Part shown: positions 2,161 to 29,489 of the stretch, one piece after another
Numbering within the stretch: the first letter of the stretch is position 1
Layout: each line of letters opens with the position of its first letter
The notes under the pieces: generated by a model
What the model was told of the DNA's origin: nothing
The model's database searches: none
Seen by the model: only the letters and a program-made list of their open reading frames with translations
Origin: Candidatus Omnitrophota bacterium
Lineage (GTDB): Bacteria; Omnitrophota; Gorgyraeia; Zapsychrales; Zapsychraceae
DNA: 58,607 nucleotides
Direction: 5' to 3'
NCBI GenBank assembly: GCA_023247445.1
Contig: JAHFGL010000006.1
Location: forward strand, 1 to 58,607
Translations under genes and position numbers: made by a program

Positions 2161-2178
2161 GGCGAGGTAGCCAAGTGG
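2161..2178 (+). pseudogene. tRNA-Cys fragment 1 of 3 (acceptor and D-arm 5' part)
   Basis: GGCGAGGTAGCCAAGTGG is the 5' acceptor strand (2161-2167) and start of the D-arm of a tRNA-Cys. The sequence then breaks into a hairpin. The rest of this tRNA is found at 2383-2416 and 2532-2554. Joined, the three pieces form a complete cloverleaf with a GCA anticodon and an encoded CCA. It is labelled a pseudogene because it is interrupted. Whether a functional RNA can be made from it is unknown. Confidence 0.7.
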
Positions 2179-2213
2179 CCCCGCCAATCTTAATGTTTGA
2201 ATGGTAGGCGGGG
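2179..2213 (+). repeat. Hairpin repeat A next to tRNA fragment
   Basis: Seven-base arms ccccgcc (2179-2185) and ggcgggg (2207-2213) enclose an A/T-rich core. The right part (aatggtaggcgg) recurs at about 2331-2342 in hairpin B, so these are copies of one element. Confidence 0.6.
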
Positions 2214-2235
2214 TTCCGACTAAAACTTTAATAAC

Positions 2236-2307
2236 GGCGCGGTAGCCAAGAGGTAAGGCAGAAGTCTGCAAAACTTCTATGCGTCGGTTCAATTCCGACC
2301 CGCGCCT
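2236..2307 (+). tRNA. tRNA-Cys (GCA)
   Basis: Acceptor strands GGCGCGG (2236-2242) and CCGCGCC (2300-2306) pair perfectly. Anticodon stem GAAGT/ACTTC holds loop CTGCAAA with anticodon GCA at 2268-2270. T-stem GTCGG/CCGAC holds TTCAATT. The discriminator is T and CCA is not encoded. It lies inside the first insertion of a second, split tRNA-Cys. Confidence 0.93.
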
Positions 2308-2382
2308 TCTAAGTTCTTTGGTTTTTAATTTAAATGGTAGGCGGAGTCCCGACTTCAATTAAAGTTTTTGGAAACGTCGGGA
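2300..2382 (+). repeat. Hairpin repeats B after tRNA-Cys
   Basis: Two hairpins. The first uses the 3' acceptor of tRNA-Cys (cgcct) as its left arm, pairing with aggcg near 2337. The second has arms cccgact (from about 2348) and cgtcggg (ending about 2381) around an A/T-rich core. Part of this sequence repeats hairpin A. Confidence 0.55.
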
Positions 2383-2416
2383 TAAGGCAGAAGTCTGCAA
2401 AACTTCTATGCACCGG
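2383..2416 (+). pseudogene. tRNA-Cys fragment 2 of 3 (D-arm end, anticodon arm, T-stem 5' strand)
   Basis: The piece starts TAAGGC (D-arm 3' side) and continues with anticodon stem GAAGT/ACTTC, loop CTGCAAA and variable region TATGC. It ends ACCGG, the 5' strand of the T-stem. The matching CCGGT lies 120 bases away at 2539-2543. It joins without any missing base to the pieces at 2161-2178 and 2532-2554. Confidence 0.7.
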
Positions 2417-2531
2417 CACCAACTTTCCTTAAAGATTATTTGGAAGTTGGTACTGCGCTGACTTTTTCTAATTGAAAAAAGGTTGGTGCAGTGCTGACTA
2501 CCATAATATTAGTTAAGGTAAGTCAGCGCGG
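2417..2531 (+). repeat. Hairpin array C inserted in split tRNA-Cys
   Basis: 115 bases with nested inverted repeats. Caccaacttt pairs with aaagttgg-like sequence. Gcgctgact (from about 2456) pairs with agtcagcgc (2520-2528). Gtgctgac near 2491 is an alternative partner of the same right arm. No reading frame of note. Confidence 0.55.
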
Positions 2532-2554
2532 TTCAAGTCCGGTCCTCGCCTCCA
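2532..2554 (+). pseudogene. tRNA-Cys fragment 3 of 3 (T-loop to CCA)
   Basis: TTCAAGT loop, CCGGT T-stem 3' strand, CCTCGCC acceptor 3' strand (perfect partner of GGCGAGG at 2161-2167), discriminator T and encoded CCA at 2552-2554. Confidence 0.7.
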
Positions 2555-2664: not shown

Positions 2665-2761
2665 ATTGGACCCGTCCCTTGCCATCGAGAATAGTAATTG
2701 TGGCTCGGGACTGGCCCAATTTTTTCTGAAATAAAATTTTTTAATTATTGAAAATTGGACC
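2665..2761 (+). repeat. Double hairpin element running into tRNA-Val
   Basis: Hairpin 1 pairs 2665-2678 with 2707-2720. Hairpin 2 pairs ggcccaatttt (2713-2723) with aaaattggacc (2751-2761), and this right arm contains the first bases of tRNA-Val. The segment ggcccaat is shared, so the two hairpins exclude each other. The left arm of hairpin 1 contains a copy of the tRNA-Val 5' end (ggacccgt at 2668-2675). The core (TTCTGAAATAAAATTTTTTA) is homologous to the element in front of tRNA-Gln at 17529-17577. Confidence 0.65.
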
Positions 2762-2834
2762 CGTAGCTCAGCTTGGTTAGAGCGTTTCCTTGACATGGAA
2801 AAGGTCACAGGTTCGAGTCCTGTCGGGTCCACCA
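2757..2834 (+). tRNA. tRNA-Val (GAC)
   Basis: Acceptor GGACCCG (2757-2763) pairs with CGGGTCC (2824-2830). The anticodon loop is TTGACAT with anticodon GAC. The T-arm contains GTTCGAGTC. Discriminator A, and CCA is encoded at 2832-2834. The thrS start codon follows only 5 bases later. Confidence 0.95.
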
Positions 2835-17311: not shown

Positions 17312-17330
17312 TTGTGGGTGAGAGAATTTA

Positions 17331-17373
17331 AAAACAAAAACACAAACAAATGCTGTTTGTGTTTTTGTTTTTT
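17331..17373 (+). terminator. Intrinsic terminator after gltX and lipoprotein gene
   Basis: Arms acaaaaacacaaaca (17334-17348) and tgtttgtgtttttgt (17354-17368), followed by T residues. Confidence 0.85.
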
Positions 17374-17440
17374 AGGTGAAGGTTGAGCTTGGTTGCCCTG
17401 CATTTGTTTCTCTGAATAGAAATTTATTGAAACAAATACT

Positions 17441-17577
17441 GGACAAAACTTTCCAATGTAAAAGTTTCTAATTTGGGTGGTTTTGTCCCGCCCTTCCTTT
17501 TCTGGAAATATTTTTGGTAGTTGGGACTGGGCAAAGCTTCTCTAATATAAAAATTTTTAATTGTAGTAGCTTTGCCC
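17441..17577 (+). repeat. Triple hairpin element running into tRNA-Gln
   Basis: Hairpin 1 pairs ggacaaaact (17441-17450) with 17479-17488. Hairpin 2 pairs gtccc (17485-17489) with gggac (17523-17527). Hairpin 3 pairs gggcaaagct (17529-17538) perfectly with agctttgccc (17568-17577), whose last five bases are the start of tRNA-Gln. Hairpins 1 and 3 are homologous copies, and their arms differ by paired changes (ggaca/tgtcc versus gggca/tgccc). The sequence GGGACTGG and the A/T core are shared with the tRNA-Val element at 2665-2761. Confidence 0.7.
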
Positions 17578-17646
17578 TGTGGTGTAATGGTAGCACAAGT
17601 GATTCTGGATCACTTTGTCTAGGTTCGAATCCTGGCGGGGCAGCCA
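17573..17646 (+). tRNA. tRNA-Gln (CTG)
   Basis: Acceptor TGCCCTG (17573-17579) pairs with CGGGGCA (17636-17642) with one G-T pair. Anticodon stem AGTGA/TCACT holds TTCTGGA with anticodon CTG. T-arm AGGTTCGAATCCT. Discriminator G and encoded CCA at 17644-17646. Confidence 0.93.
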
Positions 17647-29164: not shown

Positions 29165-29252
29165 CTTCTTCGGTAGCTGGCTAGCCCTTAACTTCATTGT
29201 AAGGCCCCTTTAGTTTTGCGTCCCCGGGTTACCCCGGGTTTGCCTTTATCGT
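29165..29252 (-). promoter_or_regulatory. Cyclic-di-GMP-I (GEMM-I) riboswitch
   Basis: Read on the minus strand: AAAGGCAAACC, a GNRA-capped stem (cccggg-GTAA-cccggg), GGGACGCAAAACTAAAGGGGCC, and at the 3' end GCTAGCCAGCTACCGAAG. This is the conserved order of the class, including the GGACGCAAA joining region. It lies about 120 bases before the metalloprotease start. Downstream of it, aaataagatg and catcttattt can form a long-range stem that may be the expression platform. Confidence 0.9.
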
Positions 29253-29489
29253 TTTTTACTCTACTGGAAGTGTAAAACATAATTGTTATTAAAACAAGGG
29301 CTAGGGAAATATATATTCTTGATTTATGGTTGGTCTAGTAGGTTTTTTAAATAAATCCTACCGAAGCTTGAGGTAGGAGTGATACAATGTTGCAGACTTA
29401 AATGCTTTCATGGCAACGGTTATGAACTCTCAATTACAACAGAAAAAATCATATTTTAGTAATAATAAGATAAACAATTTTATTTAATA
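29253..29489. other. Intergenic region before dsbD-like gene
   Basis: The minus strand side holds a plausible promoter for the riboswitch (TTGTTT, 17 bases, TACACT). On the + strand tcctacc (29356-29362) and ggtagga (29372-29378) form a hairpin, with gtagg upstream (about 29338) as an alternative partner. No gene was recognised. Confidence 0.4.

Follow-up and report, generated by a model that had tools for sequence, protein, structure and literature searches.

Integrative islands that lodge at tRNA genes by means of tyrosine recombinases restore the end of the tRNA they enter; the integrase that they encode recombines them site-specifically, as a rule into the 3′ end, and they are kilobases long and without hairpin ends. 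The attC sites of integrons keep their variable arms complementary and are recognised by structure. MITEs are short, non-coding, dispersed elements with inverted terminal repeats and a short target duplication, all of which they share with the family described here. The REP/REPIN plus RAYT (Y1) system resembles it in consisting of small palindromes, often inverted pairs and long maintained, which bear a GTAG or CGTC tetranucleotide at the hairpin foot, as described in the accessible part of PMC3733652. Dada DNA transposons of fish and Perkinsus, on the evidence of the available portion of PMC3706591, likewise lie inside tRNA genes, with each family specific for a tRNA, and have a short internal sequence common to element and target. 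Finally, the double-hairpin or repetitive hairpin-forming elements of fungal and sponge mitochondria are also two-hairpin units, thought to be mobile and located beside tRNA genes (PMC2800124, in the part available).

We focus here on a window, the whole analysed stretch of 58,607 nucleotides from contig JAHFGL010000006.1, that belongs to a little-known group of uncultured bacteria in which tiny hairpin mobile elements seem to insert themselves into essential tRNA genes. One would expect single-copy tRNA genes to be among the worst landing sites for a transposon, yet most of those in this genome have a copy beside or inside them (27 of 45 tRNAs). The genome comprises 2.29 Mb in 75 contigs with 45 tRNA matches, and the threonyl-tRNA synthetase gene that adjoins tRNA-Val in the window has its closest relatives in MAGs of Candidatus Omnitrophota (72% identity) and Candidatus Zapsychrus exili (70%). 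An Rfam scan of the window returned only tRNAs and one riboswitch at gathering score, and no Rfam family matched the hairpins at that score; the riboswitch, of the c-di-GMP-I-GGC type, lies at 29168-29253 (−), above its gathering score. We found no description of such elements in the open-access full-text literature, an absence that is provisional, and the main text of a large Omnitrophota genome paper (PMC10066038) contains no occurrence of 'repeat' or 'palindrom'. The tRNA-Gln feature at the centre of this work is probably two tandem copies of short, non-coding, hairpin-ended, MITE-like transposable elements that target tRNA genes and rescue the gene they hit.

All features of the tRNA-Gln locus lie on the + strand. 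The first-pass annotation, made from the letters alone, had placed the start of the feature at 17441, which is one hairpin too late. The array begins with TTGCCCTG (17393..17400), an upstream copy of the tRNA-Gln 5′ end that forms the left flank of the first unit and whose terminal triplet is the target CTG. Next comes the first hairpin of unit 1, the older copy, arranged x c x′ with ACT at its end (17401..17440; a match to covariance model R1 at E 1.3e-5), and then its second hairpin (17441..17488), which the annotation called hairpin 1 and whose outer arm no longer serves the tRNA and has drifted jointly with its partner arm. Unit 2, the younger copy, has a first hairpin x c x′ ending in GGGACT (17491..17528; R1 match, E 2.5e-8) and a second hairpin (17529..17577), the annotation's hairpin 3, in which arm GGGCAAAGCT pairs with AGCTTTGCCC. 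The final five bases of AGCTTTGCCC are positions 1-5 of the intact tRNA-Gln(ctg) (17573..17646), with the triplet CTG at 17577-17579. The locus reads as two tandem units, a tRNA start followed by x c x′ ACT and y c y′, then a drifted tRNA start followed by the same pair of hairpins, with the last y′ continuing into tRNA-Gln itself. Immediately 5′ of this array, a perfect 19-bp inverted repeat (17330-17372) is perhaps the terminator of the preceding gene.

That hairpins 1 and 3 are copies of one sequence holds, since 36 of 49 columns are identical and none of 1000 shuffled pairs scores as high, and the compensating arm changes (GGACA/TGTCC versus GGGCA/TGCCC) are as claimed. A likeness to an element before tRNA-Val had also been proposed. 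There, on the + strand, ATTGGACCCG (2665..2674), an upstream copy of the tRNA-Val 5′ end with its leader, precedes a first hairpin ending in GGGACT (2675..2712) and a second hairpin (2713..2763) whose outer arm enters positions 1-7 of the intact tRNA-Val(gac) (2757..2834). The likeness stands for hairpin 3, with 35 of 51 columns identical to the Val hairpin at 2713-2763 and a score reached by 0 of 1000 shuffles; it is much weaker for hairpin 1 (30 of 52 identical, score reached by 20 of 1000). GGGACTGG is present in both loci. Folded as DNA, hairpins 1 and 3 outperform their shuffles (z −2.5 and −3.4), the Val hairpin only marginally so (z −1.1). The middle Gln hairpin (17491-17528) folds only at chance level (z 0.0), yet its sequence matches the family, albeit under a covariance model for which it was itself a training copy.

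That model, R1, was built from 16 hairpins taken at tRNA flanks of this genome. At E<=0.001 it finds 40 copies, 16 of them the training copies; 30 of the 40 lie within 150 nt of a tRNA, as do 14 of the 24 outside the training set, where the expectation is 0.66%, the share of the genome within that distance. The matches are mostly oriented toward the tRNA (on the 5′ side, 20 on the strand of the tRNA and 2 opposite), and the hairpin ends share a conserved core, GCNC..CTTTTCTAAA..GGAAG..ACTG; a single core motif recurs across genera. The 8-bp stem of the training hairpins shows 18 double-sided changes, compared with 3.5 for shuffles, and slid controls likewise show far fewer. The proposal of a family of tRNA-targeting palindromic elements is supported by these matches, far above background at tRNA flanks, and neither outcome that was to refute it, a random spread without a tRNA link or an absence of covariation, was seen in the genome scan.

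Beyond this genome, carriage is patchy. R1 matches at E<=1e-3 occur in 14 of 37 genomes in a search of relatives, and at E<=1e-5 with stricter filters in 14 of 384 genomes across the phylum, the present genome being counted in both. Among 138 matches from loci of other genomes, stem pairing reaches 93%, with 268 double-sided cells against 78.7 in shuffles; two of five measures in the same test (pairs with double changes, further pair types) are not above shuffles, and the pairing percentage is biased upward since R1 itself chose and aligned the matches. In six other genomes, a locus is available for 82 of 95 matches and lacking for 13; of the 82, 34 are no more than 300 nt from a tRNA and 48 are not so close, and the targeting of tRNA genes is therefore a preference. 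Several of the non-tRNA copies in the own genome (L078, L086, L087, L088, L090, L092) sit inside a palindromic repeat of type TCATTCTGAGC..GAAGAATCTC, which suggests that the elements may favour hairpin DNA of any kind. We also observed three identical 88-nt tandem units in another genome, at 732-992 of locus L133, apparently repeated insertion or amplification at one CTG, and a dense array of nested family copies around tRNA-Phe of genome G023 (L128, 3400-4300).

The arm adjoining a tRNA had been proposed to be adapted to the start of that tRNA, and it does match its own tRNA and not others. Where an element abuts a tRNA 5′ end, its second hairpin uses the tRNA start as its outer arm. At 19 loci, picked by eye out of 45, the arm that follows the first hairpin matches the start region of its own tRNA: the longest exact complement averages 9.4 nt, compared with 4.8 nt against other tRNAs, and none of 20,000 permutations is as good (p<1/20,000). 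A coarser test, with 40 shuffles per tRNA, gives direct repeats of the tRNA start at p<=0.05 for 17 of 45 tRNAs and inverted copies for 15 of 45. By eye, the element before tRNA-Ala(cgc) can be recognised in a pair of congeneric species, where the arms read ATTGATTT/AAATCAAT and ATTCATTT/AAATGAAT, respectively; these differ in a compensating manner, and compensation therefore goes on after insertion, as in the disused unit 1 at tRNA-Gln.

Copies also occur within tRNA genes, at their 3′ ends and at sites without a tRNA, which goes beyond the first-pass annotation, as do 3-bp target duplications and the presence of a complete tRNA in some copies. Those at tRNA 3′ ends are on the opposite strand, for example at tRNA-Arg in L130 and tRNA-Leu in L115 (by eye). 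Around position 1591 of L115 and 3900 of L128, the terminal CACCA of the element is the CACCA end of the tRNA; an element end may provide the CCA tail at some tRNA 3′ ends.

A complete copy is bounded on either side by an inverted hairpin end, C[AC]C.. on the left and ..G[TG]G on the right in most of 34 paired copies. The paired copies measure 75-237 bp, the longest bearing a tRNA (paired ends were sought only up to about 420 bp). When R1 sets the register, identical triplets stand outside both ends in 30 of the 34 (CAG 12, CTG 9, CGG 5, CCG 3, CGA 1; usually CNG), whereas flanks re-paired at random give a mean of 9.3 matching triplets and a maximum of 19 in 5000 trials. The duplication is missing in four pairs. 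Some copies share flanks (L128:655, L205 and L207; likewise L069 and L072) and are probably copies of larger repeats; allowing for this, there are about 31 independent pairs, 27 of them with the duplication. Because identical 3-bp repeats flank so many of the paired ends, we infer that the family copies are products of transposition. A looser pairing in which the model did not fix the register gave equal triplets in 14 of 121 pairs, many in wrong registers, and is superseded by the R1-registered set. A target duplication of 8-16 bp, which would comprise the repeated tRNA start, is disfavoured: at the two tRNA-Ser genes that have an element, the tRNA start recurs without the leader (by eye). 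We favour a 3-bp duplication together with a tRNA-matching element end; copying of a longer stretch remains possible, given a 13-15 nt repeat with a matching arm at a non-tRNA copy (L130, about 850-950).

The window's resident tRNA-Cys, also on the + strand, is broken twice. Its 5′ piece (2161..2178) is followed by an insertion in the D loop (2179..2381) that contains a complete tRNA-Cys(gca) at 2236-2307 between family-like hairpins; the boundaries of this insertion are less certain, in particular its exact right edge, where the match is partial (E 0.02). The middle piece (2382..2416), with terminal target triplet CGG, is separated from the 3′ piece (2529..2553) by a complete 112-bp element with both ends present and CGG on either flank (2417..2528). 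Joined in silico, minus one CGG, the three pieces give tRNA-Cys(gca), which is identical to the carried tRNA in 64 of 76 columns. Candidatus Zapsychrus exili has a compact counterpart of this Cys-Leu-Val cluster, with spacers of 9 and 4 nt against 257 and 107 in the window, and there too a hairpin-broken tRNA-Cys fragment is seen by eye just upstream.

Three further loci (L066, L135 and L136) yield tRNA-Leu(cag), tRNA-Arg(acg) and tRNA-Val(tac), respectively, when all inserted DNA is removed along with one repeat of the duplication, and each locus has within its insertion a complete tRNA with the anticodon of the restored resident (67/84, 73/76 and 66/78 columns identical). At four loci, the window's tRNA-Cys included, in silico excision hence restores a full tRNA whose anticodon is that of the carried tRNA. 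Excision of a single insertion gave no tRNA at four of five loci tried; for three of these (L135, L136 and the window locus), a second removal did. At L006, where a tRNA-Arg(tct) is carried within tRNA-Arg-like pieces, excising that single insertion yields no predicted tRNA, and at L122 tRNA-Val-like pieces surround a complete tRNA-Val (by eye). The stems of the interrupted tRNAs are still intact, as judged by eye; they are therefore young or still selected.

In the mechanism we propose, an enzyme supplied in trans, for which no candidate has been found, would recognise the hairpin ends and insert the element at CNG. tRNA genes would be the preferred or the best-tolerated target, whether through a preference for hairpin-rich DNA containing CNG or through the survival of self-rescuing insertions alone. 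Insertion into an essential tRNA could be survived if the terminal bases of the element, together with the duplicated triplet, rebuild the tRNA end or, alternatively, if a carried tRNA takes over from the broken resident. The paired arm changes may come from selection on the hairpin, from template-switch repair or from both, while tRNA function keeps the tRNA side constant. Rescue of the target is inferred from outcomes, without a strain pair from before and after insertion.

The search for the mobilising enzyme found no autonomous element, that is, no gene bracketed by hairpins, among Y1_Tnp genes of 37 genomes and DDE_Tnp_1, rve, Transposase_20 and PDDEXK_2 genes of the six element-rich genomes. 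No tested DDE, IS110 or PDDEXK_2 gene adjoins hairpins, and most element-rich genomes lack these families; viral contigs, scanned with one strict pattern, yielded nothing. Y1_Tnp alone among the tested families occurs in all six element-rich genomes, and the ends are paired inverted hairpins with an internal loop, like REPIN-type repeats, so that a single-strand (HUH, Y1) transposase like those associated with REP might instead move the hairpins, the flanking triplet being copied without a staggered cut. We regard this as improbable. Y1_Tnp is found in 23 of 31 other relatives too, and only 2 of 30 Y1 loci, which are not all the Y1 genes found, have an R1 match nearby. One of these, a Y1 gene beside a tRNA with a weak hairpin match in one genome, was ruled out as the mobiliser since it is an ordinary three-copy IS200. 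Furthermore, the triplets match on both sides of the copies, which to our knowledge is not expected from HUH/Y1 single-strand chemistry.

A role at the RNA level, in which a leader hairpin engulfing the tRNA start governs tRNA processing and the covariation stems from RNA function, would account for the pairing of the arm with the tRNA 5′ end at 19 loci, for the orientation toward the tRNA and for the retention of the Ala(cgc) hairpin with compensating changes; the same hairpins nonetheless lie within tRNA genes, at 3′ ends and far from tRNAs, with target duplications, and no Rfam family matches them, which leaves this explanation with very little weight. We think it just as poorly supported that no transposition is involved and that template-switch mutation makes passive palindromes and keeps them perfect. 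Such switching is reported to create and maintain perfect stems (PMC8794818, in the part available), and the disused arm of Gln unit 1 still changed together with its partner, but this process cannot explain why 30 of 34 copies have 3-bp duplications, why different genera share one core motif or how copies come to interrupt tRNAs, and it is contradicted as the sole cause. It may well operate on top of transposition. An assembly artefact of metagenome bins hardly deserves consideration: all genomes do appear to be drafts of many contigs, but the same architecture recurs in many genomes assembled separately, as well as in a named MAG contig.

Transposition of MITE-like elements thus remains our reading, and it admits an extension that we consider doubtful, a homing to tRNAs in which the second-hairpin arm guides insertion by pairing with the tRNA end and composites spread between cells with a replacement tRNA. 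A bolder addition, held no more firmly, is that cells may still produce some interrupted tRNAs by removing the insert, either as DNA or as RNA, because the stems of these tRNAs are intact even after two insertions. If homing were true, the tRNA set of a bacterium would be progressively taken over by tRNAs carried on mobile elements. Transposition itself, if correct, means that a bacterial element family invades essential RNA genes by rebuilding or replacing them, which gives selfish DNA a route to tRNA gene turnover. The copies also form a natural data set on hairpin arms that stay complementary while one arm is locked by another function.

Set against known systems, the family shares with integrative islands the restored end of the entered tRNA and differs from them in that they use their own integrase, normally at the 3′ end, reach kilobases in length and lack hairpin ends. 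With integron attC sites, it shares complementary variable arms, and it differs in having target duplications; a comparison of its consensus with the R′ and R″ boxes, made by eye only, recognised no conserved boxes. For the mitochondrial double-hairpin elements, the available part of PMC2800124 reports no tRNA-matching arm, CNG duplication or carried tRNA. REP/RAYT and Dada each fail a tested defining feature. In the former, the GTAG/CGTC tag is not met, the feet of the family hairpins being GC.. and ..ACTG, and neither is a RAYT gene flanked by repeats, at least among the 30 Y1 loci; the family also differs in its 3-bp duplication and tRNA targeting. Dada elements are eukaryotic, encode a transposase, make 6-7 bp duplications and are hidden in multicopy genes, with no replacement of tRNAs reported in the available part of PMC3706591; an encoded transposase and a 6-7 bp duplication are not met here, where the duplication is 3 bp and the copies are far too short to encode one. 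From MITEs, the family is set apart by ends that are covarying hairpins and not a fixed terminal sequence, by its strong tRNA link, by complete tRNA cargo and by the lack of a known parent element, no autonomous relative that shares its ends having been found among the five enzyme families searched. The MITE is nevertheless the closest known kind of element and, the known parent excepted, its testable features are met: inverted hairpin ends in most of the 34 paired copies, a short target duplication, and a non-coding length well within the limit of about 600 bp.
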